From Crassaminicella profunda (GTDB lineage Bacteria > Bacillota > Clostridia > Peptostreptococcales > Thermotaleaceae), in the NCBI RefSeq assembly GCF_019884785.1, contig NZ_CP082326.1, positions 2,287,355 through 2,351,354 of the forward strand: 64,000 bases of DNA, written 5' to 3'. Of the stretch, positions 7,944 to 54,783 are shown in pieces. The notes under the pieces are model-generated. The model was not told the origin of the DNA, made no database searches, and was given only the letters and a program-made list of their open reading frames with translations. A program made the translations under genes and the position numbers. Numbering within the stretch: position 1 is the stretch's first letter; every line of letters begins with the position of its first letter.

Positions 7944-7967
7944 TTTTCCACCTCCATATAATTTGAA

Positions 7968-8059: not shown

Positions 8060-8530
8060 TTAAAATTTACAAAATTCATCTCTGATAGAGCTCATTTCTT
8101 CAATGATCTCATCTACCTCAAGAACCATTTCCATCATGCCAATTTGGTCCTCGTATACTTCTGCATCTACAGCTTCTTTAATTTCTGGTTCTACTACATG
8201 ATATACTCTGAGTCCTAACTGAACTCCTGCTAATGGACCTGCAAAAGTAGGGTCTCCATTTGTTACAGTTTCAGCAGCTAAGCCTGCAGCTTCTGCTTCT
8301 GCTGCTCCTAAAAGTACTAGCATATTTTCTGCACCATACTTTTCTGTTAATGTTTTTACCCTATTTTGATTTTCTAAGTCCATTGCTCCTGCAGCGGTTC
8401 AGACAAAGCATTCAGTAGAAGAGAATACTACTTCTGCACCTGTGCCCTTTAGGCATTCCTCTACAGCAGGACCTGGTATACCATCTCTGTCACCAACAAT
8501 GATGACTTTTTTACCATCTAAAATACTCAT
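8060..8530 (-). CDS. grdA: glycine/sarcosine/betaine reductase selenoprotein A
   Basis: 156 residues with one in-frame TGA at 8399-8401 read as selenocysteine 44, in the redox motif CFVU. Both the position and the CxxU motif are those known for GrdA. The small acidic protein carries the carboxymethyl group as a Se-ether between substrate-specific component B and component C, and is re-reduced by thioredoxin. ATG at 8530 follows GGTGGTAACC. Translating only from an internal ATG would lose the active site. A SECIS-type hairpin begins one base after the TGA. Hairpins flank the gene on both sides (7968-7995 and 8571-8592). Confidence 0.97.
8380..8397 (-). promoter_or_regulatory. SECIS element of grdA
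   Basis: On the minus strand CCGCTGC, loop AGGA, GCAATGG: six of seven positions pair (one G-T, one mismatch). It starts one base after the TGA Sec codon, within the coding sequence, as expected for SelB-dependent bacterial SECIS elements. Confidence 0.65.
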
Positions 8531-8592: not shown

Positions 8593-8602
8593 AGATTATA
8601 AA

Positions 8603-8923
8603 CTATCCTACATGTTTTGCAATCATAGCATCAATATTTGCTTTTGTTGCATCATCTTTAGTTACTTCTTCAACTTTTTCTCCATCTTTATATAAAGAAA
8701 TTGTTGGTAAACCTAAAACTCTTTGTCCTATTGCAAGTCTTCTTGCCTTCATTGTATTTAACTTTGCAAATTTTACTTTTCCTTCATATTTTTTTTCTAA
8801 TTCCTCTACATCAGGCATTAAAGCTTTACATGGCTCACAACCATCACTCCAATAATCTACAAGAACAAAGCCTTGTGCATCTAATACTTCTTCTTGGAAA
8901 GTTTTTTTATCTACTGCTAACAT
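8603..8923 (-). CDS. trxA: thioredoxin, glycine-reductase type
   Basis: 106 residues. The active site GCEPC replaces WCGPC, a variant I associate with thioredoxins of glycine-reductase operons. The cis-Pro segment is GLPTISLY. It shuttles electrons from TrxB (14 bases upstream in the operon) to the selenoprotein GrdA (next gene). ATG at 8923 has AAAGGGG upstream. A close paralogue lies beyond grdD at 4752-5069. Confidence 0.93.
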
Positions 8924-8937
8924 ATTTTTTCCCCTTT

Positions 8938-9885
8938 CTACTCTTCAAAGTTATTTTCAATATATTTTTCTGCTGTTACAGCTGCAATAGCTCCATCAGC
9001 CGTAGCAGTTACTACCTGTCTTAAAGATTTCACACGAATATCTCCTGCTGCAAATACTCCTTCTACATTTGTTTTCATATCTGCATCTGTTGGAATATAT
9101 CCACCTTGATCTAATTCTATTTTTCCTTTAAATACTTCACTAAATGGAATAAATCCTATAAATGGGAATACTCCAAAAGTTCCATCTTCTTCATCTGCAT
9201 GATATTCGTTGATCTCTCCAGTTTTCTTATTTTTAAATACAATAGTCTCTAAAATACCATCTCCTTTTAGTTCTTCCACTACTGTATCCCACATAAAGTT
9301 TAATTTTTCATTCTTAAACGCTTTTTCTTGAATAGATTTTGCAGCTCTCAATTCATCTCTTCTATGTACAATCGTTACCTTTCTTGCAAATTTAGTCAAA
9401 TACATAGCTTCCTCTACTGCAGAATCTCCTCCACCTATTACAAACACTTCTAATTCTGTAAAAAAGTCTGCATCGCAAGTTGCACAATAAGACACACCTT
9501 TTCCAGTTAATTCTTTTTCTCCTGGACAACCAATAGGTCTTGGTGTTGCACCTGTTGCAATAATTACAGCTTTTGCCTTGTATTCTTCTTTTTCACCTTT
9601 TACAACTTTAATTTTTTCTGTAAAATCTACATCTACTATGGTATCTTTTTTTCTTTCTGCTCCAAACTCCTCAGCTTGCTCTACCATTCTTGCAATTAAT
9701 GTTGGTCCTGTAGCTTCATGAACAGATCCTGGATAGTTTGCTACCTCGTTTGTTGTTACAATTTGTCCACCAACTTTATTTTTTTCTAAAATTAACGTTT
9801 TCATTTTAGCTCTTGAAGCATATAATCCTGCTGCTAATCCTGCAGGTCCTGCACCAATTATGATTACATCATATAAATTTTGCAT
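8938..9885 (-). CDS. trxB: thioredoxin reductase
   Basis: 315 residues. FAD-binding GAGPAG near residue 11, redox-active CATC (in CATCDADFF) near residue 133, NADPH-binding GGGDSA near 152, and the C-terminal FAD motif AAGDIR near 282. NADPH-dependent reduction of the thioredoxin encoded immediately downstream. ATG at 9885 follows AGGGAGGATAGAT; an ATG 48 bases earlier lacks a binding site. First gene of the trxB-trxA-grdA-grdC-grdD operon. Confidence 0.95.
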
Positions 9886-9966
9886 ATCTATCCTCCCTTT
9901 AACTTTATTCATTTCAATTATATTTATTTTCAAGGAATTATTCCCTAAAAAAATAATTTCATATCT

Positions 9967-10020
9967 ATAATATCACACTTTTTTATTTTGTAAACATGAT
10001 TATAAAATAAACATGATTAT
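9967..10020 (-). promoter_or_regulatory. trxB-grd promoter with two tandem operator boxes
   Basis: On the minus strand TTTACA (9989-9994), 16-base spacer, TATTAT (9967-9972). Overlapping and upstream of the -35 lie two identical 13-base boxes, TAAACATGATTAT on the plus strand, at 9991-10003 and 10008-10020, exactly 17 bases apart. The same arrangement stands before grdI (14517-14546), and a palindromic form of the box sits in the promoter of the TetR-type regulator (14616-14627). Confidence 0.7.
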
Positions 10021-10066
10021 ATTCTTTTTTATAATATTTCCGTTACTAAAAGTAAAGATGGAAATT

Positions 10067-10098: not shown

Positions 10099-10219
10099 AT
10101 AATTTTTCAATTTTGTTGAATAAGTTCATTGCTTATTATTTTACCATATCTTGTGAAATACTCCTGAATCATGTATAATTATGGAAGTTAGAATCTTTCA
10201 CAAGTTGAACTTTTAACTA

Positions 10220-11698: not shown

Positions 11699-11718
11699 AC
11701 GGTGTATCCCTCCATTTA

Positions 11719-13035: not shown

Positions 13036-13048
13036 CTAATACACCTCC

Positions 13049-37738: not shown

Positions 37739-39541
37739 TTATGTCGTTGCATGAACAGATTTTGTTACTATGCCTCCAGTAAGCTTTCCTTCTACAACGT
37801 TTTCCTTAGGTGTATAAATATCATTGATATTCCATATTCCATCTGTCGGTACAGGAATATTTTCCATTGGTACGTCAATTAGATATGGTTCGTTTGATTC
37901 TAATGCTTCTTTAAATACAGCTTTGAATTCATCTGCACTCTGAATTTTCTTACTTTTGATGCCATATCCTGCTGCTATTTGTGCCCAATCTGGCGTATAT
38001 GCTGCTCCTTTTGCATCCTTAAATACAGTTCCAAATGTATGTTCATAGTGGGAAGCTTCTAAACCAGCAATTGTTCCAAATGCACTATTATTCATAACAA
38101 CCCAAACTACAGGAATATTCTTTTCAACAGCAGTTGCAATAACTGATGGGTTTGTACCAAATCCTCCATCACCAACTAATGTAATTACTTTTTTATCTGG
38201 TGCAGCAAGTTTTGCTCCTAATGTTGCAGCTGGTCCAAAGCCCATTGTAGCTAATCCACCTGGATGAAGTATTGTGCTTGGTAATTCAATATCAAACTGT
38301 TGACCCATACCATTTTTATTCCAACCAACATCTGTTACGATAATACCATCTTGCGGGAATACTTCACGAACATCTTTTAGTATTCTTTGAGGAGTCATTG
38401 GGAATCTAGAATCATTTGAAATAGCTTCATTTGATTTCTTAAACTCCATCTTATTCTCTTTAATAAATTCTCTTAATTGTGAACGATCTATTCCTTCAGG
38501 CTTTAATTCTTTTGCTGCTTTTACTATAGCTTGTAGTGCTAATTTAGGATCTGCAACTGCACCTATAGCAACTGGATAGTTTCTACCAATTTCACTTGGT
38601 TCTACATCAATCTGCATGAATTTACTTTTTTCTTCATCGAATGTAACATTATTATACCATGAACTACTGTCTGCTTCTGCAAATCTTGTTCCTATTCCTA
38701 AAATTACATCTGCATTTTTTGAAATGCCATTAACAAAATCTGTCCCCCAAAATCCAGTCATTCCAACCATTAATGGATGTGTATCTGGCAATATGCCCTG
38801 CCCCATTAATGTTCTTGTAACAGGAATATCTAAAAATTCTACTAATTCTCTTAGTTCATCTGTTGCTTCGCTGAATACGGCTTGACCACCAACATGAATT
38901 AATGGATTTTTTGCATTAATTAATTCCTTAGCAATTTCTTTTGCCGTATTTTCAGGAATACTTGGTTTAAATATTTCATGAGATTCTTTGTATGTTCTTG
39001 CAAAAAGTTTATCATCAATTTCTCTAGAGAACATATCCATTGGTACAGAAATCAATACTGGTCCTGGTCTACCTGTTTCAGCTAATCTAAATGCTTTATC
39101 TAAAATCTCTGGAAGTAGCTCTGGATTATCAAGTCTCCAAGCTCTTTTTACAAAAGGTTTATATATATCATATTGTGATCCATCACAATGCATATTTACT
39201 TCTTGATGAGGATGCTTTCCATAGTAATAACTTGGAACATCTCCTGCAATTACAACCATTGGAATTGCATCTAATGCAGCATTTGCTACACCTGTAGCAG
39301 CATTTGTTAATCCAGGTCCTAAATGACATAAAACAACGCTTGCTTTTTTTGTGATTCTTGCATAAGCATCTGCTGCGTGTGAAGCAACTTGCTCATGTCT
39401 TACTGAAATATATTCAAGCTTTTCACTTTTCTCAAGTGCATCTAGCATAGCAATAACTGTATGCCCACATAAACCAAATATATGCTTAACATCTCTTCTT
39501 TCAAGATAGTTTACTATCTGTGAAGATACTAGTTTTTTCAT
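37739..39541 (-). CDS. thiamine diphosphate-dependent enzyme (acetolactate synthase-like)
   Basis: 600 residues. Three-domain ThDP enzyme: catalytic Glu in VRHEQVASHAADAYAR near 50, GPGLTNAATG near 75, and the ThDP/Mg motif GDGGFGTNPSVIATAVEKNIPVVWVVMNN in the C-terminal third (GDG...NN). Family members include acetolactate synthase, glyoxylate carboligase, IolD and 2-hydroxyacyl-CoA lyase; this one does not clearly match any. Gene neighbours (Gfo/Idh dehydrogenase, TIM-barrel isomerase, acylating aldehyde dehydrogenase) resemble an inositol-type set, so it may split a C-C bond in a cyclic or keto sugar. That is inference. Confidence 0.85.
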   Translation of the reverse strand: MKKLVSSQIVNYLERRDVKHIFGLCGHTVIAMLDALEKSEKLEYISVRHEQVASHAADAYARITKKASVVLCHLGPGLTNAATGVANAALDAIPMVVIAGDVPSYYYGKHPHQEVNMHCDGSQYDIYKPFVKRAWRLDNPELLPEILDKAFRLAETGRPGPVLISVPMDMFSREIDDKLFARTYKESHEIFKPSIPENTAKEIAKELINAKNPLIHVGGQAVFSEATDELRELVEFLDIPVTRTLMGQGILPDTHPLMVGMTGFWGTDFVNGISKNADVILGIGTRFAEADSSSWYNNVTFDEEKSKFMQIDVEPSEIGRNYPVAIGAVADPKLALQAIVKAAKELKPEGIDRSQLREFIKENKMEFKKSNEAISNDSRFPMTPQRILKDVREVFPQDGIIVTDVGWNKNGMGQQFDIELPSTILHPGGLATMGFGPAATLGAKLAAPDKKVITLVGDGGFGTNPSVIATAVEKNIPVVWVVMNNSAFGTIAGLEASHYEHTFGTVFKDAKGAAYTPDWAQIAAGYGIKSKKIQSADEFKAVFKEALESNEPYLIDVPMENIPVPTDGIWNINDIYTPKENVVEGKLTGGIVTKSVHATT

Positions 39542-39554
39542 TTATTTCTCCTCC

Positions 39555-40733
39555 TTAATAGTCCACTCTTCGTCCTTCTTCTGCTGATACATATGCTGCA
39601 TAAATTACCTTTAAACTATCATAAGCAAGATCAAATCCTGATTGTGGCTCTCGATCAAATGCAATACACTCCATGAAATCTTGTAACTGACCTGTATAAC
39701 CTCTTATTACCTCATCAGAAACGAATGCTTTATTCCATCCTAATTTTGATGGTAACATTTCAGCAATTGAAATGTCTTCAATGCCATCTTCATCTAAATA
39801 GTAAGTATTTAAAATATCTGTAGGTGTAATATTGCAAACAAAATTAGCATCATTACAATACAATTCAATATAATTTTTTGTTCCTCCTAAGCATACATCT
39901 GCAGATATGATCAATGCCTTTGTTCCGTCAGAAAAAGTAATCGTAATCGTACCAATATCTTCAACATCTTCAGGTGCTGCAGCAATATGACGTTTTTCAT
40001 GCTCTGTCAAATTGTCTGTGATTACTCCCACATCTGCTACTACACTTTTTATTGTGATCTCTTCACCTCGTGCTTTAGCTTCCTCTTGTTTTAACCATAA
40101 AATTCCTGAAAGAGGATGACATGCTACACGGATAACTGTTCCACCACCAGTCATATCCCATCTACCTGCAACAGGTGAACTTGAGCCTTTTAAGCTCTCT
40201 TCACCTTTTGCAAATAAAATTTTACTCTTTTTAGCACGAATTAATTCTGCTGATTTTTGTACAGGTGTACAATAAACATAGTTTTCAGCATACATAAATT
40301 TTGCTTCTGATTCTTCTACTACTTTCTTTATCTTATCCATTGATTCCAATACCGATCCATACATTTTGCTTTTTGAAACGTTTTTTCCAATTGGCTTTTG
40401 GTCATCAGCTTTACCAAAGTAACCACTTAAAGGTTTTTCACAAATTACATGTTTTCCTGCTTTTAAAGCCTTGATAATCATATCTTCATGAAGAGCAGGT
40501 GGTGTTACAATATCTATTACATCAATTTCTTCATCTGCTAATAACTCATCAAATTTATCTACAGCCTTTTCAAAACCGTACTGATCTGCAATTCTTTGAG
40601 CTTTTTCTATATCAATATCTACAATAGTTTTTAATCTTACATCAACTCCACTAACACGCTTATATCCATTACCATGTAATGTTGAGGCATAGCCTCCTCC
40701 TACTAATCCAACTACTACAGATTTTTTATTCAT
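39555..40733 (-). CDS. Gfo/Idh/MocA family oxidoreductase
   Basis: 392 residues. Rossmann motif GLVGGGYAS at the N-terminus and the family EKP motif (VICEKPLSGYF near 100). An unusually long insertion follows EKP. NAD(P)-dependent oxidation of a sugar, cyclitol or related compound. ATG at 40733 is behind AGGAGG; a longer frame overlaps the upstream gene. Ten bases after the aldehyde dehydrogenase stop. Confidence 0.88.
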   Translation of the reverse strand: MNKKSVVVGLVGGGYASTLHGNGYKRVSGVDVRLKTIVDIDIEKAQRIADQYGFEKAVDKFDELLADEEIDVIDIVTPPALHEDMIIKALKAGKHVICEKPLSGYFGKADDQKPIGKNVSKSKMYGSVLESMDKIKKVVEESEAKFMYAENYVYCTPVQKSAELIRAKKSKILFAKGEESLKGSSSPVAGRWDMTGGGTVIRVACHPLSGILWLKQEEAKARGEEITIKSVVADVGVITDNLTEHEKRHIAAAPEDVEDIGTITITFSDGTKALIISADVCLGGTKNYIELYCNDANFVCNITPTDILNTYYLDEDGIEDISIAEMLPSKLGWNKAFVSDEVIRGYTGQLQDFMECIAFDREPQSGFDLAYDSLKVIYAAYVSAEEGRRVDY

Positions 40734-40743
40734 TTTCTTCCTC

Positions 40744-42153
40744 CTATTCTTCAAGTTCAGCGTTATAAAATTCTCCAAATAATTCTGCATCTGATGGTCT
40801 ATCCTCTGAAATAGGCTTTGATACCCATGTTATATTCATATAATGCTTTAAGTTAACATTTTCTGATACAACATTTCCACCCCAAGTTCCGCATCCAAGA
40901 CTTGATGTCATAGGCATACCATTTGTAAAGGATCCAGCATTTGCTTTTGATTGAGGTTGTCTAACCATCATTCTACTTACAGGAGCCAGCATTGCTAACT
41001 GATGTATATGCTCATCATCAAAAGAGTATATTCCACATGAATGACCTTTTCCACCGTAATCATAAATCTTTTCAATCATCTTCAATGCATTTTCGAATCC
41101 TTCATACTTATGAATAGCTAGTAATGTTGTTAATTTTTCTCCTGAAAATAAATATCCTTTTCCTACACCATCACCAATTACAGCAATAAACTTTCTATCT
41201 TCTCCAATTTCAAATCCAGCGATTTTTGCTAACTTTTGTGGTGCAATAGCTACTGTATCAGCTAATCTATGACCTTCATCATCCCACATAACTTTTCTAA
41301 GCATTTCTCTTTCTTCTTCATTTGCAATATATGCACCCTCAACTTCAAGTTGCTTAAGGAAATCATCATAAATTCTAGAATCTACTACTAAGTTTCCATC
41401 TGCTGAACAACCTGAACCAAAGTCAGAAGTCTTACTTAATCTTGTATTTCTAGCAGCCTCTTCAAGATTAGCTGTCTCATCAATTACCATAGTTGAATTT
41501 CCAGCTCCTACACCATAAGCAGGTGTTCCTGAACTATAAGCGGCTCTAACAAGTCCTTGTCCTCCAGTAGCTAAAACAAGATCACATTCAGCCATTAATG
41601 TTTGTGTCATTGTCATATTTACATTTTGTAAACATTGTAAAATATCTTCAGGAGCGCCTTCTTTTTTTAACGCTTCTCTCATTAATCTTACTGTTTCAAA
41701 AGAAGTATTTTTAGCTCTTGGATGAGGTGAAAAGATAACAGCGTCTCTTGCTTTTATAGCATATACAGCTGTTCCCGCAGGAGTTAATGCTGGATTAGTT
41801 GTAGGTACTACAGAACCGATTACCCCAACAGGTTTAGCATATTTTACTAATCCTTTTTCAGGAATTTCCTCGATAATCCCTACACTCTTAGAACGTAATG
41901 CATCTCTTAGTATACCACGAATTTTAAATCTCTTATTAATTCTACTTTCATAATCACCTAGCTTACTTTCTTCAATTCCCATAGTAGTCAATCCTAAAAA
42001 CGTTTTCCTGTTTGCTACAGCCCAAGCTACTGCCTGACATAATCTATCTACTTTCTCTTGTGAATATGTTTCAAGAATTGCCTGTGCTTTTCTTGCTTTC
42101 TCTAAAGCTTCATCTAACTCTTTTCTTTGAATATGGGTTAATTCTTTTGCCAT
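40744..42153 (-). CDS. CoA-acylating aldehyde dehydrogenase
   Basis: 469 residues of the EutE/PduP/SauS type. Catalytic Cys in FGSGCSADGNLV near 245; nucleotide-binding region VIGSVVPTTNPALTP near 100; GQSCGIYS-like GKGHSCGIYS near 360. Converts an aldehyde, NAD and CoA to an acyl-CoA, giving a route to ATP. It looks close to enzymes annotated as acylating sulfoacetaldehyde or succinate-semialdehyde dehydrogenase; I cannot decide the substrate. ATG at 42153 follows GGAGGCG. Confidence 0.88.
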   Translation of the reverse strand: MAKELTHIQRKELDEALEKARKAQAILETYSQEKVDRLCQAVAWAVANRKTFLGLTTMGIEESKLGDYESRINKRFKIRGILRDALRSKSVGIIEEIPEKGLVKYAKPVGVIGSVVPTTNPALTPAGTAVYAIKARDAVIFSPHPRAKNTSFETVRLMREALKKEGAPEDILQCLQNVNMTMTQTLMAECDLVLATGGQGLVRAAYSSGTPAYGVGAGNSTMVIDETANLEEAARNTRLSKTSDFGSGCSADGNLVVDSRIYDDFLKQLEVEGAYIANEEEREMLRKVMWDDEGHRLADTVAIAPQKLAKIAGFEIGEDRKFIAVIGDGVGKGYLFSGEKLTTLLAIHKYEGFENALKMIEKIYDYGGKGHSCGIYSFDDEHIHQLAMLAPVSRMMVRQPQSKANAGSFTNGMPMTSSLGCGTWGGNVVSENVNLKHYMNITWVSKPISEDRPSDAELFGEFYNAELEE

Positions 42154-42180
42154 TTTTAACGCCTCCATAATTTATGTTTT

Positions 42181-43002
42181 TTATTTAAATATTTTTTTAT
42201 CAAAATATTCTTTTGCTGTTTCAAGACATCTTCGAGCATGTTCTGTATATCCTAGCTCTTTTACTCTCTCAATATGAGGTAATTCAATAGAGTATACTAC
42301 TTGTCTAGGAATTCTCTTGATGATTTCATCAATGTTAATTGCCCCTTCACCTACATAATAACGTTCATCTCTACCTGTAAAAATTAACCCTTCTTTAGTT
42401 GTAGGAATCTCTGCTCCTGCATCACATATATGTGCAAAGTTAAACCATTCAGGTGGTAGTCCATCTAGTTCATCAAGTTGAACTCTAGAACGATTAAAAT
42501 GTAATGTATCTATCATGATGCCTTTATTAGTTGCAGTAGTAGCTTCTAACACTTCTACTGTCTGCTTTAGATCTTTAACCCCTGCCCAAGTTACAAATTC
42601 TAAATCAACATTTAAGCCAAATGGTTTTGCTAATTCACATAACTCATGGAATTTCTCAGTATATAAAGATTTATCTTCTGTCCAAATACTTGTTAATAAG
42701 CTTTTTGCCCCTAGTTCAGCCCCAACTTCCATGGCTGACAAATAACTTTTCATATCCAAATCATCAATGATTCTCGCCAACTCAATATCATGAACACGAA
42801 TGCCCGTCTGGCTTAATGCTTTTTTTGTATGAGATAACATCTCTTTCTTATTAGCTATATCATAATTCGGTTCTCCAGGTAGCCCCATATAAATAGGTCT
42901 AATACTGACATAGTCATAGCCACACATTGAGGCTATATATACCATTTCCGGTGGTGCACATCCCAATACTGTTAAATGAGCTAAAGAAAATTCTGCTTTC
43001 AT
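42181..43002 (-). CDS. sugar phosphate isomerase/epimerase family TIM-barrel protein
   Basis: 273 residues of the AP-endonuclease-2 (xylose isomerase-like) superfamily. Metal ligands fit: Glu in VDLEFVTWAG near 152, Asp/His in MIDTLHFNRS near 185, and a late Glu in VYSIELPH near 245. Isomerisation, epimerisation or dehydration of a sugar or inosose. First gene of the large catabolic operon; start behind GAGGGGAGAT. A decayed copy of its 5' end lies about 104 bases upstream. Confidence 0.85.
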   Translation of the reverse strand: MKAEFSLAHLTVLGCAPPEMVYIASMCGYDYVSIRPIYMGLPGEPNYDIANKKEMLSHTKKALSQTGIRVHDIELARIIDDLDMKSYLSAMEVGAELGAKSLLTSIWTEDKSLYTEKFHELCELAKPFGLNVDLEFVTWAGVKDLKQTVEVLEATTATNKGIMIDTLHFNRSRVQLDELDGLPPEWFNFAHICDAGAEIPTTKEGLIFTGRDERYYVGEGAINIDEIIKRIPRQVVYSIELPHIERVKELGYTEHARRCLETAKEYFDKKIFK

Positions 43003-44477: not shown

Positions 44478-45365
44478 TTATTTCATATTTTTCCTTATAT
44501 CTTTTATTTTTTGATGCTCCATAGCCTCAGCAGCATTATAGGAACTTCTTACAAAAGGTCCAGAAGCTACAAATTCAAAACCTAACTTCAGTGCCTCTTC
44601 CTTATATTTTTCAAAAGTCTCTGGTTTTATATACGCTACAACAGGATAATGCTTTGCACTAGGTGCTAAATACTGTCCAATAGTTAGGAAGTCACATCTT
44701 ACGCCTCTCAAATCTTTTAGTACCTTCATGATTTCTTCTTTCTTTTCTCCAAGTCCAAGCATAATTCCCGACTTTGTAAATATATGATCATTCATCTTTT
44801 TTATATTTTTCAATACTTCTAAAGAACGTTCATATCTTGCCATAGAACGTACCTTATGGTACAATCTTGGAACGGTTTCAATATTGTGATTAATAATTTC
44901 AGGCTTTGCTTCTACCACTTTATTTAATGCACTCTCATCCCCTTGAAAATCAGGAATCAAAACCTCAACAACAATTTGTTTCTCTCGTGATTTTATGGCT
45001 TTAATCACATTTGCAAAATGTCCTGCTCCCCCATCTGGCAAATCATCCCTTGTTACAGAAGTGATTACAACATGTTTTAATCCAAGTTCTACTGCTACAT
45101 TTGCAATATTTTCAGGTTCGCTCAAATCCACGTCTTGTAATTTGCCATGGGAAACATTACAAAACTTACAATTCCTAGAACATTCATTTCCTAAAATCAT
45201 AAAAGTTGCTGTTTTTTTACTAAAACACTCCATTCTATTAGGACAATTGGCTTCTTCACATACAGTATTTAAATTATACTTATTCAGCAAATTTTTCACA
45301 TAATCTAAACTACGTCCTTCACTTAAATTTATCTTAAGCCATTTTGGTTTCTTTTGTATTTCCAT
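44478..45365 (-). CDS. lipA: lipoyl synthase
   Basis: 295 residues, radical SAM. The auxiliary cluster motif C-x4-C-x5-C ([12 protein letters not shown] near 35) and the SAM cluster CSRNCKFC near 62 are both intact, with the terminal RSSYNA motif near 278. Inserts two sulfurs into octanoyl groups on GcvH. ATG at 45365 follows GGGAGGGG. Last gene of the gcv-lip operon. Confidence 0.97.
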
Positions 45366-45437
45366 ATATAACCCCTCCCACACCTTAGCTTACCCCTCTA
45401 TTCTCATGCATATTATTTAAAATCATTTCTCCCTTTA

Positions 45438-46103
45438 TCATTTATTTAAATATCTTTCTTCATAGTTTTTATAATTAAACGTTTTACAAAAATAATCTAG
45501 CACTAATTGATTGGCATGGTTAAAATCAACGGCTCTTCCAATAATATTTTGAACAGAAGTAACCCCCCTATCAGATATACCACAAGGAACAATCCATCTA
45601 AAGTAGTTTAAGTTTGTATTAACATTAAAAGCAAATCCATGCATTATAATACCTCGTTTCACGGCTAAACCTATGGCAACAATCTTTTTGTTATTGACCC
45701 ATACCCCTGTATATTTTGCATCTCTTCCTGCAATAATCTTATATTCTTCCTTTAAAAGCTTAATAAACACGTCTTCAAGGTTTCTAACAAAAGTTCTTAT
45801 ACCCATATGGGAATTTTTCAAATCAACTATAGGATACCCAACAATTTGACCTTCTCCGTGATAAGTAACATCTCCACCTCTATTAATTTTTACTAAATGT
45901 ATTCCCTGATCATTTAAAAATTTCTCACTTCCTAGAATATGTTCCTTTTCTGCTCTTCTTCCTAATGTAATCACTGATGGATGTTCCACTAAAATCAACG
46001 TATCTTCAATCTCTTGATCTTGCCTCTTTTTTAAAAGATCATATTGAATCTTCAGCGCTTTTTTATATTCACATCTTCCTAAGAATAAAACATTTATTTT
46101 CAT
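45438..46103 (-). CDS. lipB: octanoyl-[acyl carrier protein]-protein octanoyltransferase
   Basis: 221 residues. RGGDVTYHGEGQ near 72 and the Cys/Lys catalytic pair (Lys in AIGLAVKRG near 140, Cys in VPCGISDRGVTS near 170) define LipB. Transfers octanoate from ACP to the GcvH lipoyl Lys; LipA then sulfurates it. The ATG at 46103 is preferred over a GTG three codons earlier that lies in the binding site. Confidence 0.95.
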   Translation of the reverse strand: MKINVLFLGRCEYKKALKIQYDLLKKRQDQEIEDTLILVEHPSVITLGRRAEKEHILGSEKFLNDQGIHLVKINRGGDVTYHGEGQIVGYPIVDLKNSHMGIRTFVRNLEDVFIKLLKEEYKIIAGRDAKYTGVWVNNKKIVAIGLAVKRGIIMHGFAFNVNTNLNYFRWIVPCGISDRGVTSVQNIIGRAVDFNHANQLVLDYFCKTFNYKNYEERYLNK

Positions 46104-46143
46104 TTCACCCACTTCCTATTCCCTAAATAAAATTTGTATTTAT

Positions 46144-46172
46144 ATACCTCCCTCGTAAACACGGGGAGGTAT
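46144..46172 (-). terminator. strong hairpin between the selenoprotein gene and lipB
   Basis: ATACCTCCC (46144-46152) with GGGAGGTAT (46164-46172), 11-base loop. On the minus strand only a weak T tract follows (ATAAATACAAATTTT), so partial termination or processing is likely. Confidence 0.55.
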
Positions 46173-46190: not shown

Positions 46191-46490
46191 CTAAACTAAC
46201 TGATATCTATATATTAATGTATATTGTCCTTTTCTTTCTTTAACTCCTGCTTTGATTATGTTTGCAACTCGTCCCGAATCTAATGTAATTTTAGTTCCTT
46301 CTACCCTCTCTAAATATGTTGTAACTGCTTTTGCTTGTTCTGGTTCTACCATTTCCTTCACTCCCCACGGAAGTGACATAACTTTTACAGCATCTCATGT
46401 TTCACATATGTTCCCTTCTCTTTCTTTTATTGAGTTTTCTATACTATTTTTTAATGCAAGTGCTACATCACCATCATGTGCAAATAACAT
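46191..46490 (-). CDS. candidate new selenoprotein with CxxU motif in the glycine-cleavage operon
   Basis: An uninterrupted 99-residue frame if the TGA at 46395-46397 is read as selenocysteine 32. ATG at 46490 has a perfect AAGGAGAG 6 bases upstream. The Sec lies in ICETUD, a CxxU redox motif as in GrdA. An 8-bp hairpin with loop GTG (46358-46376) begins 18 bases after the TGA, the expected SECIS place. N-terminal part is acidic/helical (residues 1-30); C-terminal part (60-99) has beta-strand character ending IYRYQLV. No known family recognised. It lies between gcvPB and lipB, co-directional. The organism uses Sec (grdA, grdH nearby). A role in lipoyl or thiol redox is a guess. Confidence 0.8.
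46358..46376 (-). promoter_or_regulatory. SECIS element of the new selenoprotein gene
   Basis: On the minus strand TCACTTCC, loop GTG, GGGAGTGA: eight pairs (one G-T). Located 18 bases after the TGA, within the coding frame, with a G-containing small loop as in known SelB-binding hairpins. Confidence 0.72.
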
Positions 46491-46565
46491 CCTATTCTCT
46501 CCTTTTTAAATGGTTTCTAGAGCTTTACCTATCCATGTTATACTCAAAAAAGACAAGACTTTTTC

Positions 46566-48029
46566 TTATTTCTTATCCTTTTCCCATTTTACAATTAAAT
46601 TTCTTGCTGCCCTTGCTTCATCTATTCTCCTAACAGGTGTATCATGTGGTGCAGTCTTTAAAATCTGTGGATCTTCCTTTGCCTCTTTTGCAATTTTTAT
46701 CATGGTTTCAATAAAACCATCTATCGTTTCAAGACTTTCTGTTTCTGTTGGTTCAATCATCAACGCTTCGTTCACAATTAATGGAAAATATATGGTTGGT
46801 GGATGATACCCATAATCTAATAATCTCTTAGCTACATCAAGAGTTGAAACTTCTGAAAGTTCTTCTCCTAACCCGCCTAAAACAAATTCATGCTTACATA
46901 CTTGATTGATTGGCAAATAATAATATTCCTTAAGTTTATTCATCATATAATTTGCATTCAAAACTGCTGTTTCACTTACTTCTTTAATTCCCTCTGCTCC
47001 CATTGTAAGAATATAAACATATGCACGAAGGATTATTCCATAGTTTCCATAGAATCCTTTAATTTTACCAATTGTATCTGGTTGATCATAATTTAATATA
47101 TACTGATTATCCTTTTTATCAATTACTGGTACAGGCAAAAACTTAACAAGATGTTCTTTTACACCTACTGGTCCACTTCCTGGCCCACCTCCACCATGAG
47201 GTGTAGAAAAAGTCTTATGTAGATTATAATGCATTACATCAAAGCCCATATCTCCAGGCCTTACTTTTCCCATAATGGCATTCATATTTGCCCCATCATA
47301 GTATAAAAGTCCTCCAGCTTCATGTACAAGATCTGCAATCAATTTAATATTTTTTTCAAAAAGTCCTAATGTACTTGGATTGGTTAACATTAAACCTGCA
47401 ATTTCTTCATTTAGAACAGCTTTTAATGCATCAATATCCACTGCTCCATTCTTATCAGATTGAATTTCAACAATTTCAAATCCTGAAACAGCAGCAGTTG
47501 CCGGATTTGTACCATGGGCAGAATCAGGTACGATGATTTTTTTTCTTTTTACATCTCCTCGGCTTTCATGATAAGCCTTTATGATCATAAGCCCTGTAAG
47601 CTCTCCATGAGCCCCTGCCGCAGGCTGTAGAGTCGTTTTATCCATACCTGATATTTCTGATAAAAAATCTCCTAAATTATACATAATTTCAAGAGAGCCT
47701 TGTACCGTTTCTTCAGGTTGATAAGGATGTATTTCAGTAAGTTCCCTAATAGATGCCATATCTTCATTAATTTTTGGATTATATTTCATTGTACAAGATC
47801 CTAAAGGATAAAATCCTGTATCCACTCCATAATTTAAATTAGATAAATTGGTAAAATGTCTAATCACATCTACTTCACTTACCTCAGGCAAATTCACTTC
47901 CTCTTCTCTTAAAAATTCACTTGGGATAAATTCCCTCATTTCTCCATTGCATAAATCACACTTTGGAAGAGCATATGCTTTTCTTCCTTCTTTAGATATC
48001 TCAAAAATTAATTGATCATACATTTTCAC
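46566..48029 (-). CDS. gcvPB: glycine dehydrogenase (decarboxylating) subunit 2
   Basis: 487 residues, the C-terminal half of P protein. PLP Lys in [18 protein letters not shown] near 270. Decarboxylates glycine and passes the aminomethyl group to lipoylated GcvH. GTG start at 48029 with GGAGG 7 bases upstream; it shares one base with the gcvPA stop (TAGTG). It is the last P-protein gene, followed after 75 bases by the selenoprotein gene. Confidence 0.97.
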
Positions 48030-49369
48030 TATACCACCTCCAAAGCACTTAAAAATTTATCTATTTCCATCTTCGTTCTTTTCTCCGTTACAGCAAACAT
48101 TAATCCATTCTCAAGTTCAGGATAATCCTTGTTAATTTCATATCCACCCATTATTCCATTATTTAATAAATGTTTATTAATATCCTTACTATCTATAGGA
48201 CTTGTTACTACAAATTCTTTGAAAAATGGTTGATTGAACAATATGTTGAATTTACCACCCTTTGTCATTTCTTTTAGCGCATAATGAGACTTTTGAACAC
48301 ACCTCTGTGCTACTTCTTTAAGTCCTTTTTTACCCATTGTTGTTAAATAGACTGTTGCTATTAAAGCATTTAATCCTTGATTTGAGCAAATATTTGAAGT
48401 TGCCTTAAATCTTCTAATATGTTGTTCTCTTGCCTGTAAAGTCAATACAAAAGCTCTTTTCCCATCTGCATCAACAGATTGTCCAACAATTCTACCTGGC
48501 ATTTTTCTTGCTAATTTTGATTTAGTTGCCATAAATCCTAAATAAGGACCTCCAAAATTCAACCCATTTCCTAAAGATTGACCTTCCCCTACAACAATAT
48601 CCACTCCTAATTCCCCTGGACTTTTTAATATGCCAAGAGAAATTGGATCTACATATGTAATAAACATTCCTTTATTTGCATGCGTTATTTTTTCTATTTC
48701 TGTTAAGTCTTCTATAATTCCAAAGAAATTAGGATTTTGAATAATGACTCCTGCTGTATTTTTATTCACCATAGACTTTAATTTTTCAATATCCGTTACA
48801 CCATCTGCCATGTCTACTTCTACCACTTCCATATCTCTAAATTTCATATAAGTATGCATTACTTTTCTAACCTCAGGATGGACTGTTTTAGATATGACAA
48901 CAGATTTTCTTCTTGTATTTGCACAAGCCATCATTCCTGCTTCCACACAAGCAGTTGGTCCATCATACATAGAAGCATTGGATAGATCCATCCCTGTAAG
49001 GTTAGCAATCATGGTTTGGTATTCAAATATAACACGAAGTGTTCCTTGGCTAATTTCTGGTTGATAAGGTGTATATGCTGTAAAAAACTCTGATCGACTA
49101 GCAATATGCTTAATAATTGCAGGAATATAATGATCATAAGCACCAGCTCCCAAAAATGAAATCAATTCATTGGTACTTCTATTCTTTTTTGTAAGTCTAT
49201 TCATATGGCTTATAATTTCAGTTTCTGATAAACCTGTCCCTAAATTCAACTCTCTATTTAAACGAAGTTCTTTTGGTATATCTTCAAACAAATCCTCTAT
49301 AGATTTAACTCCCATACTATCAAGCATTAATTTTTTATCTGATTCTGTATTCGGTATATACCTGTGCAT
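48029..49369 (-). CDS. gcvPA: glycine dehydrogenase (decarboxylating) subunit 1
   Basis: 446 residues, N-terminal half of P protein, with the conserved MHRYIPNT start, [12 protein letters not shown] near 90 and DGPTACVEA near 150. Forms the alpha2beta2 P protein with GcvPB. Start behind AGGAGG. Split P proteins are usual in Firmicutes. Confidence 0.97.
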
Positions 49370-49402: not shown

Positions 49403-49789
49403 TTAATGACTTTTATTTTTACAAAACTCCTCATATGCTTTGTCATCCATCAGATTGTCAAGTTCAGATTGATCCTTTAACTCTACTAATAAAATCCAGC
49501 TTTCATAAGGCTTTTCATTCAGCATTTGTGGCGCATTTTCTAATTCTTCATTGATTTCTACAACCTTTCCAGAAACCGGCATATATGAATCAGAAGCAGC
49601 CTTAACGGATTCTATCACCCCAAAAACATCCGTTGCATTTAATTCATCATCCATCTCTGGTACTTCTACATAAACGATTTCACCTAAAGCATGTTGTGCA
49701 TAATCCGTAATCCCAATATAAGCCTTATTCCCTTCTACTTTTACCCACTCATGATCCTTTGAATAATATAATCCTTGTACAATCTTCAT
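49403..49789 (-). CDS. gcvH: glycine cleavage system H protein
   Basis: 128 residues. The lipoylation Lys is in [11 protein letters not shown] near 64, and HEWVKVEG near 12 is typical. Carries the aminomethyl intermediate from P to T protein. ATG at 49789 has AAAGGAGG 8 bases upstream; the longer frame start is not used. Confidence 0.97.
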
Positions 49790-49890
49790 TCGTAATTCCT
49801 CCTTTTTTATCAATAGTATTTTAAGTTTTGTTGATCTATTTTATTCACTCTACTTATTATCCCTTAGCGAATTCATCCAATTAAAATCCC

Positions 49891-50997
49891 TTATTTTTTG
49901 TAATTTTTATTGTAAAACTTTTTACTAATTACTTTTGCCTTTGCAATTCTTTTTCTAACTTGTATCTCAATAGGTGTATCCAATTTTGCATATTCTATAT
50001 CTACCATTGCCAACCCAATATTCTTCTTTACTGTTGGAGCTGCATACCCCGTTGTCACAAAACCGATTTTCTTACCCTCTGCTAGTACATCATATCCATG
50101 TCTTGGAATTCCTTTATCAATCATTTCAAATCCTACTATTTTTCGCTTTAGTCCTTCTGCTTTTTGCTTAACCAATGCTTCTTTCCCGATGAAATTTGAT
50201 TTGTTAAGTTTCACAAAAAAGCCTAATCCTGCTTCTAATGGTGTAATTTCTTCGGAAAGTTCATTTCCATAAAGAGGTAATGACGCTTCAAACCTCAAAG
50301 TATCTCTAGCCCCTAGTCCTGCTGGCTTCAATCCTTCTTCTTTTCCAGCTGCTAATAATGCATCCCACACTTTTTTTGCATCTTCATGGGATAAGTAAAT
50401 CTCAAATCCATCTTCACCTGTATATCCTGTTCTTGATACTAAACAATTTGCTCCAGCTACTGCTACATTTCTTTTACAATAAAAAAATTTAATTTCTGAA
50501 AGATTTGTATCTGTTAGTTTTTGTAATATTTTTTGTGCATTTGGCCCTTGAATGGCCATTTCAGAAACATCATCTGAAATATTATTTATTTTTACATGAA
50601 ATTCTCCAATATTATCTTCCATCCATTTAAAATCTTTTTCCACATTACTTGCATTGATCACAAGATAAAAATGATCTTTATTAAACTTATATACTAATAA
50701 ATCATCTACAACTCCCCCATGAGGATAGCACATGAAAGTATATAAGATCTGACCCTCTTCGAGGACTGACACGTCATTGGTAACTAAATTTTGTACAAAA
50801 TCAAATGCTTCACTTCCTATAATATCCACTTCCCCCATATGGGATACATCAAATAATCCTGCAAAATTTCTTACGCTTTCATGCTCTATGGTTATGCCTT
50901 CATATTGCACCGGTAATGCCCACCCAGAAAAATCAATAATTTTTCCACCATGGCTCTCATGTTTCTCAAACAAAGAGGTTTTTCTAATTTCATTCAT
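49891..50997 (-). CDS. gcvT: aminomethyltransferase (glycine cleavage system T protein)
   Basis: 368 residues. FDVSHMGEVDI near 52, GYTGEDGFEIYL near 190 and GLGARDTLR(F/L) near 223 are the T-protein signatures. Releases ammonia and forms methylene-tetrahydrofolate. ATG at 50997 has AAAGGAGGAG about 6 bases upstream; the 96-base longer frame runs through leader hairpins. No gene for L protein (dihydrolipoamide dehydrogenase) is in the operon. Confidence 0.97.
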   Translation of the reverse strand: MNEIRKTSLFEKHESHGGKIIDFSGWALPVQYEGITIEHESVRNFAGLFDVSHMGEVDIIGSEAFDFVQNLVTNDVSVLEEGQILYTFMCYPHGGVVDDLLVYKFNKDHFYLVINASNVEKDFKWMEDNIGEFHVKINNISDDVSEMAIQGPNAQKILQKLTDTNLSEIKFFYCKRNVAVAGANCLVSRTGYTGEDGFEIYLSHEDAKKVWDALLAAGKEEGLKPAGLGARDTLRFEASLPLYGNELSEEITPLEAGLGFFVKLNKSNFIGKEALVKQKAEGLKRKIVGFEMIDKGIPRHGYDVLAEGKKIGFVTTGYAAPTVKKNIGLAMVDIEYAKLDTPIEIQVRKRIAKAKVISKKFYNKNYKK

Positions 50998-51015
50998 CCA
51001 TTTCTCCTCCTTTAC

Positions 51016-51154
51016 ATTTTTTATATTATTAGCATGCTTCATAATATAAAAAATATTAACGCTCATTAATATATTCCTCTTGTTTAAACCCACATAAATA
51101 AAACAGAGGAATATAATGGTATGCTCTATTCATCACCAAAATATTCCTCTGTTT
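51016..51154 (-). promoter_or_regulatory. structured mnmA-gcvT intergenic leader with mutually exclusive stems
   Basis: Segment A (51141-51154) is a perfect 14-bp complement of B (51101-51114). B is also complementary, with one bulge, to C (51071-51085). On the minus strand A:B is followed by TATTTATG, a weak terminator form; B:C would prevent it. Nearer gcvT a 14-bp hairpin (51016-51029 with 51041-51054) ends just before the AGGAGG of gcvT. A 17-codon frame (51126-51179) overlaps A. No glycine riboswitch motif is seen. Confidence 0.55.
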
Positions 51155-51182
51155 CTTCATAAAATTTATCGTTAAACATGAA

Positions 51183-52265
51183 TCAGTTCTTTATAACTGA
51201 TTCTATAATACCTCCACCAATAACTTCATCACCATGATAAAAAACTACAGCCTGTCCAGGTGCAACAGCTCTTTCTTTTCGATCAAATAGTACTTTAACC
51301 CTTCCATTTTCTAAGTTTGAAACACTAGCAGGCAAAAACCATCCCCACTGACATACTTTTACCTTTACTTTAATCTCCTCTTTTAGCTCATCAAAAATTG
51401 TAAAATTTACATTTTTAGCGATCAATCCCATTGAATAAGTATCCTCATCATCACCAAGAAGAATTTCATTTTTTTCAGAATCAATATGCACCACAAACAT
51501 GGGAGGATTTACATTTATTCCAAGACCTCTCTTCTGTCCAATCGTATAACGAACAATTCCTTTATGCTTTCCAACAATTTTCCCCGTCCTATCTACAAAA
51601 TTTCCACTTTTCAATGCATCTGATGATATCTTTGCCAGATAAGATACATGATCTTCATTGGGTATAAAACATATACCTGTACTATCACTTTTTTTTGCTA
51701 TTAAAGGATCGATTTTATAAGCTAACTTTCTAACTTCTTCCTTTGAAGTAAATTTCCCAAGAGGCAATAATATATATTTTAGTTGCTCTTGACTTAAGGA
51801 ATGAAGATTATATGCTTGATCTTTTCTTTCTGGTATTCCCTTAAATATGCGATATCTTTTTAGCTCTTTATCATAACAAATATTTGCATAATGTCCTGTA
51901 GCAATATAGTATGCACCAAGACTATGGGCTGTTTCTATGAGTTTTCCATACTTTATGATCCTATTGCATGTAACACATGGATTAGGCGTTCTACCTTTTA
52001 AATATTCTTCTATAAACTCCTTTTTCACAGTTTCTTCAAAAATACCTTTATAATCTACCACATAATGAGGTATATCAAGAATTTTAGCAATTCGTTTTGC
52101 ATCTCTTATAAAGGAAGGTTCAACTATATTCCCTTCTTCATCATATTCTTTAAAAACAGTCATTGTAATTCCTATAACATCATATCCCTCTCTTTTAAGA
52201 AGATATGCAGCAGCAGTACTATCCACACCACCACTTAGACCCACAGCTACTTTATTTTTATTCAT
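51183..52265 (-). CDS. mnmA: tRNA 2-thiouridine(34) synthase
   Basis: 360 residues. PP-loop GLSGGVDST near 9; catalytic cysteines in TPNPCVTCNR near 99 and STGICFI near 195; C-terminal PGQAVVFYHGDEVIGGGII. Thiolates U34 of tRNA-Lys, Glu and Gln. ATG at 52265; a GTG directly before it (52268) is equally spaced from AAGGTG and possible. After its TGA the same frame stays open for 19 more codons to TAG at 51126-51128. Confidence 0.94.
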   Translation of the reverse strand: MNKNKVAVGLSGGVDSTAAAYLLKREGYDVIGITMTVFKEYDEEGNIVEPSFIRDAKRIAKILDIPHYVVDYKGIFEETVKKEFIEEYLKGRTPNPCVTCNRIIKYGKLIETAHSLGAYYIATGHYANICYDKELKRYRIFKGIPERKDQAYNLHSLSQEQLKYILLPLGKFTSKEEVRKLAYKIDPLIAKKSDSTGICFIPNEDHVSYLAKISSDALKSGNFVDRTGKIVGKHKGIVRYTIGQKRGLGINVNPPMFVVHIDSEKNEILLGDDEDTYSMGLIAKNVNFTIFDELKEEIKVKVKVCQWGWFLPASVSNLENGRVKVLFDRKERAVAPGQAVVFYHGDEVIGGGIIESVIKN

Positions 52266-52410
52266 CACTATGCTAACACCTTCATATACTCTCCTATTTC
52301 AATAAAATTTTGTAAAGCTTTTTGCCCACTACCTTCATTCTATCAACTCCTCGTATTGCATTTATTAAAATTATATTATATTTGTTCCTCTAATTCTATC
52401 AACTTTATAT

Positions 52411-52438
52411 AAAAAACACTACCCAAAAGAGTAGTGTT
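52411..52438 (-). terminator. terminator of the small-gene pair
   Basis: AACACTAC (52415-52422) with GTAGTGTT (52431-52438), 8-base loop, followed on minus by TTTTTT. Confidence 0.88.
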
Positions 52439-52457
52439 CTTATGATTTATCATAAAT

Positions 52458-52622
52458 TTATTTTCTTAATAATTCTCTAAAATGTACCTTTTTAAGTTGA
52501 TTTTTAGTTTTGATTCCCTTAGCTTCAAAAATATCTTCATATACTTTATCAGCCATTGAATTTCCAGTGATTATTCTCTTTGCATTTTCTATTCTTTTAT
52601 ATCCTAACATGTAAAATACCAT
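52458..52622 (-). CDS. small hypothetical protein (54 residues), second gene of a two-gene unit
   Basis: MVFYMLGYKRIENA... to ...FRELLRK, basic and helical, no family recognised. ATG at 52622 follows GAAAGGGGAAATTAAAA. It starts 39 bases after the small peptide gene and ends 20 bases before a strong terminator. The complete frame between promoter, binding site and terminator argues that it is real. It was missed because it is short. Confidence 0.6.
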   Translation of the reverse strand: MVFYMLGYKRIENAKRIITGNSMADKVYEDIFEAKGIKTKNQLKKVHFRELLRK

Positions 52623-52661
52623 TTTTAATTTCCCCTTTCAAATTTAAAATATTGATTTTAT

Positions 52662-52784
52662 CTATAAATTTGATAGGGCCGGAGGTTCTGGAAAGTGGCC
52701 ATAAGAAACGAATTTTAATAGAATGATTACATTATCTGTAAACAATATACTCATCCAAGATTTTATTAATTTATTCACATACAT
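52662..52784 (-). CDS. 40-residue amphipathic peptide, possible AgrD-like signal precursor
   Basis: The reading frame begins MYVNKLIKSWMSILF, continues through a hydrophobic helix (IILLKFV) and ends SYGHFPEPPALSNL. ATG at 52784 has AAAGGAGG 9 bases upstream. The layout (basic amphipathic N-terminus, short Ser-start pentad, then PEPPxL) resembles cyclic lactone autoinducer precursors, whose tails read PExPxxL. However, the usual Cys is a Ser and no agrB-like gene is in the window. A membrane-active or structural peptide is the alternative. Confidence 0.6.
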   Translation of the reverse strand: MYVNKLIKSWMSILFTDNVIILLKFVSYGHFPEPPALSNL

Positions 52785-52857
52785 TCTTATCAGCCTCCTT
52801 TCATTCAATCAATACGCAAAGCCTTAACTATTTCTATGCTTTTCAACTGACAAGATG

Positions 52858-52886
52858 ATTATAGCACCTCCATCAAAAACAGTCAA
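52858..52886 (-). promoter_or_regulatory. strong promoter of the small-gene pair
   Basis: On the minus strand TTGACT (52881-52886), exactly 17 bases, TATAAT (52858-52863). One mismatch to consensus. Leader to the first small gene about 65 bases. Confidence 0.85.
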
Positions 52887-52963
52887 TATTTGGAAAACGG
52901 TTGCTTGAAATTTTTTTCTTCATTTTAGACTATTTTATTTCTCTTTCTACAGAATCAAATTAT

Positions 52964-53797
52964 CTATACTTCAAAGTATTTCGATACTGCTTCTATAGTC
53001 TTCTCTTTTCCTACTTGAATGGTCTTTTCTATATCCCATTCCCAATATTCTGGTCTGAATAGTTCTATAGAAACCATTTTGTTATATCCAATTTCTTTTA
53101 AAGTTTTTAAAATGCCATCAAGGTCTATAAACCCATCTCCTGGCCATAAACGCTTATCATCACGTAATGCACCAAAAGGTAAGTTTTCTGCATCATCAAT
53201 GTGGAAAATAAATAATTTATTCACATCTATTTCTTTCAAATCTGATAATTTAGATAGCATAGCATGAAAATGGAAACAATCTAATACAATCCCCACATGA
53301 TCTTTGTTTACAGTTTTTACAATATCATAGGCTTGTTCAAATCTATTTACTGAACAATTTGGATAACCTACAAATTCAAAAGCTAATTTGAAATTTCTTT
53401 TTTCAGCAATATCTGCTAAAACATTTATTTTGTCAACAGTTTCTTTTTTTATTTCTTCTACCGTATATGCTCCCACATCAAAGGTAGGCACTACGACTGC
53501 TTGATTACAACCTATTTTTTCTCCAACTTCACAAATAAATTCTAAATCCTTTATAATTTCATTGAACTTTTCCTCTGTTCTAAAGCTAATAAACTCTAAC
53601 GCATTAAATGCAAAAGGTTTTATATGACTATTTTCAAAAAATCCAACTAAATCTTCTACTGTATTTCTTTTTAGATAATCCTTTAATTGATCTATACGGA
53701 TTTCGATTAAATCATAACCATGTTTTTCGCAAAATTCTAAATCCTTTTCCAATGTAGAATATTTCATAGTTGTTGCTTCATTAAAACAAATTTTCAT
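52964..53797 (-). CDS. iolI: 2-keto-myo-inositol isomerase
   Basis: 277 residues, the same length as Bacillus IolI and matching it along the whole sequence: MKICFNEATT start, CEKHGYDLIEIR near 23, FEFVGYPNCSVN near 140, LDCFHFHAM near 177 and VSIELFRPEYW near 250. The metal ligands (Glu, Asp, His, Glu) are retained. Interconverts inosose isomers. Start behind AGGGGGGG. Last gene of the iolG-isomerase-iolI operon. Confidence 0.9.
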   Translation of the reverse strand: MKICFNEATTMKYSTLEKDLEFCEKHGYDLIEIRIDQLKDYLKRNTVEDLVGFFENSHIKPFAFNALEFISFRTEEKFNEIIKDLEFICEVGEKIGCNQAVVVPTFDVGAYTVEEIKKETVDKINVLADIAEKRNFKLAFEFVGYPNCSVNRFEQAYDIVKTVNKDHVGIVLDCFHFHAMLSKLSDLKEIDVNKLFIFHIDDAENLPFGALRDDKRLWPGDGFIDLDGILKTLKEIGYNKMVSIELFRPEYWEWDIEKTIQVGKEKTIEAVSKYFEV

Positions 53798-53810
53798 ATA
53801 ACCCCCCCTA

Positions 53811-54644
53811 TTATTTTACATGGAAAATATATTCATCCATATCTTTACTGAGCCTTTCAGCTACATCAAACACATCACATTCCCAATGTTTAGAACTAAC
53901 TAGTTCGCATGACCACCAACCATCGTAACCTGTTGCTTTGATTGCTTTGGCAAATTCTTTTAATGGAATATCACCTTTTCCATAATAGTAACCTCTTAGT
54001 TTAGTTTCATCCCATACCGTATCTCTTGATTGCTTTTTTCCATCACAAAAATGAATATTATAAATCATTGATTGATCAAGCTTAGCTACATCATCAGGTG
54101 TTGTTTCTCCACCAGCCCATAAGTGCCATGTATCAATAACCATTCTTACATTATCACGATCAACTTTTTCAATTAATTTAAGTGCTTTTGAAAGTGAATG
54201 AATCGGAGACCATGCAACTGGTTCTAATTGGAAACCAACGCCATACGTTGCACCAATGTCTGCGATTTTTCTAATATTATTTGCAGTGATTTCAATAATC
54301 TCATCAAAAGGTCTACCTTCTAATTCAAGTAATGGTACTAATTGAATAACTGGACAACCAATATCTTGAGCCACAGATGAGAAGTAATGTGCTTCAGCAA
54401 GCATTCTTTCTAAGGCTTCAGGTCTAGGGCTTTCCACGCCACAGATATCATTGATACAGACTGCTTTAAGCTCATTATCTTTTAACATTTTATCTAAATC
54501 TGCTGTTGTAAAACCTTCTTCAAGAAAACTAGCAAGTTTTGAAGCTACAATTTCCAGTGCTCCAAATCCATATTTTTTAGCTATTCTTATATCTGTAGCT
54601 AAATTACTTTTAAATATTGACTTCGTGTGTAGTGCTTTTTTCAT
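53811..54644 (-). CDS. sugar phosphate isomerase/epimerase (IolE/IolO-like)
   Basis: 277 residues, AP-endonuclease-2 superfamily TIM barrel. Metal ligands fit Glu in FQLEPVAW near 145, Asp/His in VIDTWHLWAGG near 180 and Glu in WSCELVSSKHW near 250. Likely acts on an inosose or keto-sugar in the same route as IolG and IolI; whether dehydratase or epimerase is undecided. ATG at 54644 follows AAGAGGG. Confidence 0.82.
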   Translation of the reverse strand: MKKALHTKSIFKSNLATDIRIAKKYGFGALEIVASKLASFLEEGFTTADLDKMLKDNELKAVCINDICGVESPRPEALERMLAEAHYFSSVAQDIGCPVIQLVPLLELEGRPFDEIIEITANNIRKIADIGATYGVGFQLEPVAWSPIHSLSKALKLIEKVDRDNVRMVIDTWHLWAGGETTPDDVAKLDQSMIYNIHFCDGKKQSRDTVWDETKLRGYYYGKGDIPLKEFAKAIKATGYDGWWSCELVSSKHWECDVFDVAERLSKDMDEYIFHVK

Positions 54645-54783
54645 TTTATCATTCCCTCTTTTCATATTTTAATTTAACCTAATATTCTAGTAGAATTACA
54701 TCAAGATAAATTTACCAATTTATTTTTAGAAAAAAATATGTTTCAATCTGATAAATATATTTGGTGATTATATATTCCCCTTT

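Follow-up and report, generated by a model that had tools for sequence, protein, structure and literature searches.

An interrupted reading frame in a glycine-cleavage operon

The window, i.e., the whole 64,000-nt stretch of DNA analyzed here, contains a short frame interrupted by one TGA between gcvPB and lipB, which raises the questions of whether this codon is read as selenocysteine (Sec), which protein the frame encodes and what that protein may do next to the glycine-cleavage system. Translation from 46490 to 46191 on the minus strand (left unstated in an earlier note on this DNA) yielded 99 codons with a sole in-frame TGA at codon 32 and the motif CETU, in-frame UGA included, at residues 29–32, which bore out the earlier note's description of the frame. 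The translated product is MLFAHDGDVALALKNSIENSIKEREGNICETUDAVKVMSLPWGVKEMVEPEQAKAVTTYLERVEGTKITLDSGRVANIIKAGVKERKGQYTLIYRYQLV*. The good ribosome binding site that it had claimed is likewise present, as a strong AAGGAG located ~8 nt upstream of the ATG. Conventional annotation had been expected to call only a 62-residue fragment from 46379, and the mechanical ORF list indeed gives nothing at this locus except a 62-aa fragment at 46191–46379. The features of the gene are as follows.

46191..46490, minus strand: prpU, predicted 99-aa selenoprotein, ATG start, TAG stop (frame translation; homologues)
46395..46397, minus strand: UGA codon 32, predicted Sec of the CETU motif (translation; TGA in this column in 33/33 homologues)
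46499..46504, minus strand: ribosome binding site AAGGAG (sequence inspection)

The surrounding gene order is gcvT-gcvH-gcvPA-gcvPB-prpU-lipB-lipA. The label LplA, given in tBLASTn tables to the gene 3′ of prpU, was replaced, as NCBIfam identifies this gene as LipB.

49891..51093, minus strand: gcvT, aminomethyltransferase (named by sequence and operon position)
49403..49813, minus strand: gcvH, lipoyl carrier protein, proposed electron donor (ORF list, family profiles)
48029..49369, minus strand: gcvPA (ORF list, homology, locus comparison)
46566..48029, minus strand: gcvPB, directly upstream of prpU (ORF list; NCBIfam NF003346)
45438..46112, minus strand: lipB, lipoyl(octanoyl) transferase (NCBIfam)
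44478..45383, minus strand: lipA, lipoyl synthase (NCBIfam)

Identity of the gene

PrpU has been reported as an 11-kDa CxxU selenoprotein in Eubacterium (Peptoclostridium) acidaminophilum (PMC4056300) and also in C. litorale, the protein having previously been known only from E. acidaminophilum (PMC4118067). Genome G208 is that of P. acidaminophilum DSM 3953, as shown by its second replicon (808,774 bp), from which a 3-kb sample is 100% identical to the megaplasmid NZ_CP007453.1. On its chromosome, gcvT-H-PA-PB-fhs is followed by the homologue of the window protein (103 aa, 11.09 kDa), and no other CxxU frame occurs in the 16-kb operon region. The window protein (99 aa, 11.12 kDa, likewise with one Sec in CxxU) shares 43% identity with this homologue over 92 residues (E = 2e-26). 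Because of this identity, the common size of ~11 kDa and the lack of any other CxxU frame in the gcv operon of DSM 3953, the window gene is, judged by its sequence, a PrpU and not the undescribed selenoprotein that the earlier note had taken it for, both papers having named it. PrpU of C. litorale DSM 5388 also agrees by description, as a small selenocysteine protein with CxxU (PMC4118067). Both the P. acidaminophilum operon and that of the window comprise gcvT-H-PA-PB, but the former has fhs between gcvPB and prpU, whereas the window lacks fhs, and the former shows no lipB-lipA in the stretch examined, whereas these two genes follow prpU in the window. A genome from the same genus as the window genome (G090) has an operon with both fhs and lipB-lipA.

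The family had gone unrecognized in the earlier note, a statement that stands for profile libraries and falls for the literature. Specifically, the window protein had no match in Pfam or NCBIfam at E = 1, and a search of 24 aligned members against Pfam, NCBIfam and PDB sequence profiles returned scattered chance-level matches only. PrpU is not named in Table 1 (119 selenoprotein families) of a 2026 catalogue (PMC13188914), and the C. sticklandii genome paper lists no such protein. The authors of deep-Sep caution that their own homology-based method can miss selenoproteins without Cys relatives; since we detected no Cys form of PrpU (see below) and at least this one homology-based predictor needs one, this is one likely reason why PrpU has been left out of the libraries and the catalogue. 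No biochemistry or characterization of PrpU was found in the literature searched, which did not include the selenoproteome paper on Clostridium sp. OhILAs. The wide spread of the family, its missing Cys form and its tie to GcvP and GrdA, described below, were likewise absent from the literature searched, with an earlier mention in the OhILAs paper possible. PrpU is thus a named orphan selenoprotein, absent from profile libraries and the 2026 catalogue, and the alignment from this analysis could help annotators to recover the full gene, of which only a 62-residue fragment is otherwise called.

Conservation of the in-frame UGA

Among 394 genomes of the same order, we found 27 homologues covering most of the length of the protein, counting the one in the window; every frame holds a single TGA and is otherwise free of stops. 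When 361 genomes of the class were searched with a profile, 6 more homologues emerged, from two further families and again with one TGA each, which gives a total of 33 homologues from ~730 genomes. TGA stands at the CxxU position in 33/33, with no instance of TAA, TAG or Cys in this column, and the motif C-x-[TS]-U-[DN] occupies the same place in all of them. Conservation spans the TGA (39–78% identity across the other genomes), and both flanks carry synonymous third-position changes. R24, C29, position 32, G43, V44, R95 and Y96 are invariant in a 24-row alignment. The homologues thus possess both features that the earlier note had proposed to check, namely Cys or Sec at position 32 and the N-terminal 31 residues.

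The decoding machinery agrees with this pattern. tRNA-Sec was found in 27/27 carriers of the order, including the window genome, and the window that holds prpU also carries a TGA-containing grdA and a GrdB/GrdH-type gene, in line with the claim that the organism decodes UGA as Sec. At locus L014, UGA terminates the neighboring gcvPB and so does not act there as a sense codon alone. A real stop would be expected to drift to TAA or TAG, and the prpU TGA never does, which counts against termination. Genuine termination at the TGA, with the region being either a degenerate gene or two short ones, would fit the fact that conventional ORF calling ends there and the missing Rfam SECIS match (see below), but is scarcely credible given 33 homologues conserved on either side of an unvarying TGA, the synonymous changes flanking it and tRNA-Sec in every carrier of the order. 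Hence, the gene is almost certainly prpU with UGA codon 32 read as Sec, as far as comparative sequence evidence can tell.

The ~730 genomes yielded no Cys homologue of PrpU, and neither did another 60 gcv loci scanned with the PrpU profile, a scan that included a positive control. Searching 84,980 species genomes with one protein, which detects close relatives only, returned one distinct locus (L001, Marinisporobacter), and a plasmid collection contained no PrpU homologue. Three weak matches (L029–L031) lacked a TGA, lay inside long frames and were treated as chance.

Hairpin downstream of the UGA

Both the stem of 8 pairs and the distance of exactly 18 nt between the UGA and the start of the hairpin agree with the 8-bp SECIS-type hairpin described in the earlier note.

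46358..46376, minus strand: SECIS-like hairpin, 8 pairs, GUG loop, 18 nt after the UGA (folding; synonymous-recoding test)

In the window, the hairpin folds at −9.8 kcal/mol versus a mean of −3.6 kcal/mol for synonymous recodings of the same peptide (p = 0.017), and the mean z against such recodings is −1.47 across 26 homologues, which are not independent. This is the only one among the SECIS tests to favor the hairpin. Folded alone, the 53-nt hairpin region is unremarkable (z = −1.28), stem covariation is weak, the stem register shifts between subgroups, and the Rfam SECIS models gave no match at the prpU hairpin.

Genomic context across relatives

The majority of homologues in the order (23/27) follow closely on gcvPB, in some cases with fhs or lipA in between, and so do all six from other families of the class. 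At the four remaining loci (L039, L043, L053 and L058, in G187, G169, G154 and G001), prpU stands away from the gcv genes, and GcvP is encoded elsewhere in the genome. By eye, the product of the gene next to prpU in G187 resembles a membrane protein that has 4Fe-4S and FMN-binding parts. Among the 394 genomes of the order, GcvP is present in 27/27 prpU carriers and GrdA in 25/27, the two carriers lacking GrdA being drafts that are 83–85% complete. Of the GrdA-positive genomes, in which decoding of UGA as Sec is to be expected, 25/108 with GcvP have prpU, compared with 0/72 without GcvP.

The slot after gcvPB is one in which prpU and lpd, the gene for the L-protein, alternate. Specifically, lpd lies downstream of gcvPB in 38/57 gcv loci without prpU but in 0/23 with prpU. 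The closest exchange involves G052 and G023 (L068 and L079), from the same family as the window genome and both GrdA positive, which have gcvT-H-PA-PB-lpd-lipB-lipA where the window has prpU in the place of lpd. The p-values for co-occurrence and for the slot ignore relatedness. On a GcvPB tree of 82 rows, the prpU operons fall mostly in one region, so that ~4 prpU/lpd changes suffice, and an independent-pairs test of the exchange was not significant. The Fisher values therefore overstate the case, and the p of 7e-9 obtained for the slot exchange was discounted.

As a separate observation, the next small gene after gcvPB at L071 (G069) and L098 (G170) appears by eye to encode a redox-active protein with a C-GCAxxG-C-C pattern, with neither prpU nor lpd nearby; such a gene is possibly a third occupant of the slot.

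Proposed function of PrpU

A CxxU selenoprotein inside a glycine-cleavage/lipoate operon had been linked in the earlier note to redox chemistry around lipoyl-GcvH or thioredoxin, and the evidence assembled here supports this as probable. A redox role is in itself plausible but repeats a published proposal. The more specific reading that we favor, with a rough probability of 0.6, is a relay in which PrpU would be reduced by dihydrolipoyl-GcvH and would in turn donate electrons to thioredoxin and glycine/betaine reductase. The proposed acceptors are encoded in the same window.

8603..8923, minus strand: TrxA, in the glycine/betaine reductase cluster, proposed acceptor (family profiles)
8938..9978, minus strand: TrxB, thioredoxin reductase (family profiles)
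8081..8521, minus strand: grdA match (Sec), proposed end acceptor (homology)

Under this proposal, PrpU would cycle between a Cys29-Sec32 selenylsulfide and the thiol/selenolate form. After glycine decarboxylation, oxidized PrpU would take two electrons from the dihydrolipoyl arm of GcvH, thereby filling the role that the flavoenzyme Lpd has elsewhere, and reduced PrpU would then hand them to thioredoxin and from there to GrdA of glycine/betaine reductase. An alternative outlet may lead from reduced PrpU through thioredoxin reductase to NAD(P)H, and in reverse the relay could supply electrons for glycine synthesis. Thioredoxin reportedly elicits a dihydrolipoamide dehydrogenase activity in C. 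litorale and in E. acidaminophilum (Meyer 1991, reference 13 of PMC4056300); PrpU has been reported from each of these organisms. Taken together, the operon position, the profile across genomes, the slot exchange, TrxA, TrxB and GrdA in the window and the thioredoxin-linked activity make a relay from GcvH to thioredoxin and GrdA the simplest account.

Known proteins offer partial parallels. GrdA (PF04723) is likewise a small CxxU selenoprotein of the same glycine economy but is unrelated in sequence, with no GRDA match among the 24 aligned PrpU members. Lpd (L-protein, TIGR01350) reoxidizes dihydrolipoyl-GcvH. Like prpU, its gene is found downstream of gcvPB in many other gcv operons, frequently as the very next gene. 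Lpd is, however, an FAD-dependent NAD+ enzyme of ~460 aa, whereas the 99 aa of PrpU contain no such domain and show no detectable homology to Lpd. An AlphaFold model of PrpU from a two-sequence alignment reached a pLDDT of 72 and a pTM of 0.61, the stretch following CxxU being its least confident part. Against known folds, thioredoxin-like ones included, this model gave no confident match, and no hit rose above background (best Foldseek E = 0.44; best VIA-align Z = 4.5).

Lpd in prpU carriers and alternative functions

A broader claim is that in Sec-decoding Clostridia PrpU, which depends on selenium and needs no flavin, has widely taken over from the L-protein by non-homologous gene displacement, so that the electrons of dihydrolipoyl-GcvH no longer go to NAD+ but into a thiol/selenol relay that feeds glycine reductase. 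We hold this tentatively, at slightly less than even odds. Its simple form, in which PrpU replaces Lpd genome-wide, was rejected because most carriers have Lpd somewhere: ~21/27 possess one over the family cut-off, and in two (G002 and G086) lpd lies close to the prpU-bearing gcv operon, at another place. PrpU is thus not simply what remains in genomes without Lpd. P. acidaminophilum (G208), said to lack dihydrolipoamide dehydrogenase, has a match with E = 1.1e-119, estimated to fall just under the TIGR01350 cut-off.

The same distribution would suit a PrpU working beside Lpd as an accessory relay, with dihydrolipoyl-GcvH feeding either NAD+ through Lpd or thioredoxin and GrdA according to redox state, all the more as prpU and lpd are near neighbors in G002 and G086, within the gcv operon or beside it. 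We consider this unlikely, as 21/23 prpU-bearing gcv operons hold no lpd, no protein of the window genome reaches the Lpd cut-off (best TIGR01350 E = 4.5e-47) and an Lpd encoded elsewhere in a genome may serve other lipoyl enzymes. Less probable still is a protective or regulatory role, in which PrpU would reduce oxidized or adducted lipoyl-GcvH, or repair a cysteine of the complex, and carry no bulk electrons. Sec is common in repair and antioxidant enzymes, and the small size of PrpU and the place of its gene between gcvPB and lipB-lipA are compatible with such a role, but the strong tie to GcvP and the reductive glycine pathway and the alternation with lpd in the same operon speak against it. 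A part in lipoyl assembly with LipB and LipA, e.g., as a sulfur or electron donor, is suggested by lipB and/or lipA following prpU in many operons, the window's included, but is very improbable, since several carriers (e.g., L035, L045 and L054–L057) place prpU directly after gcvPB or fhs and show neither lipB nor lipA over the stretch examined, and lipB-lipA hold the same place when lpd stands in for prpU (L068 and L079).

If the electron relay from GcvH through PrpU is correct, it would explain the direct coupling of glycine oxidation and reduction in amino-acid-fermenting Clostridia without dihydrolipoamide dehydrogenase, adding a further selenium step to the glycine Stickland pathway and a variant to a textbook multienzyme complex. 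The interest of PrpU lies in a broad family with no detected Cys form, its tie to GcvP and GrdA and the lpd alternation in its slot; together these make the relay a specific biochemical hypothesis that is testable.

Other features of the window

The region 4752–14374 is a glycine/betaine reductase cluster with two TrxA, TrxB, GrdA (Sec) and component C genes, together with a GrdB/GrdH-type Sec gene and a BCCT-like transporter. The window's single Rfam SECIS_4 match (11948–11985) falls inside the GrdB/GrdH-type gene. Glycine riboswitches are common before gcv operons; none was detected upstream of gcvT (window positions 50900–53000) at the gathering score or at E = 0.1. Between prpU and lipB, a perfect inverted repeat, ATACCTCCC/GGGAGGTAT, occupies 46144–46172; it was not terminator-like by scan, and it is kept, and longer, in Marinisporobacter L001 (5307–5340). 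This repeat may separate the expression of prpU from that of lipB-lipA. On both flanks of the gcv operon (37739–43002 and 52964–55788), there are genes that by eye resemble those of inositol catabolism, with IolD-like, Gfo/Idh-like and IolE-like sugar isomerase products.
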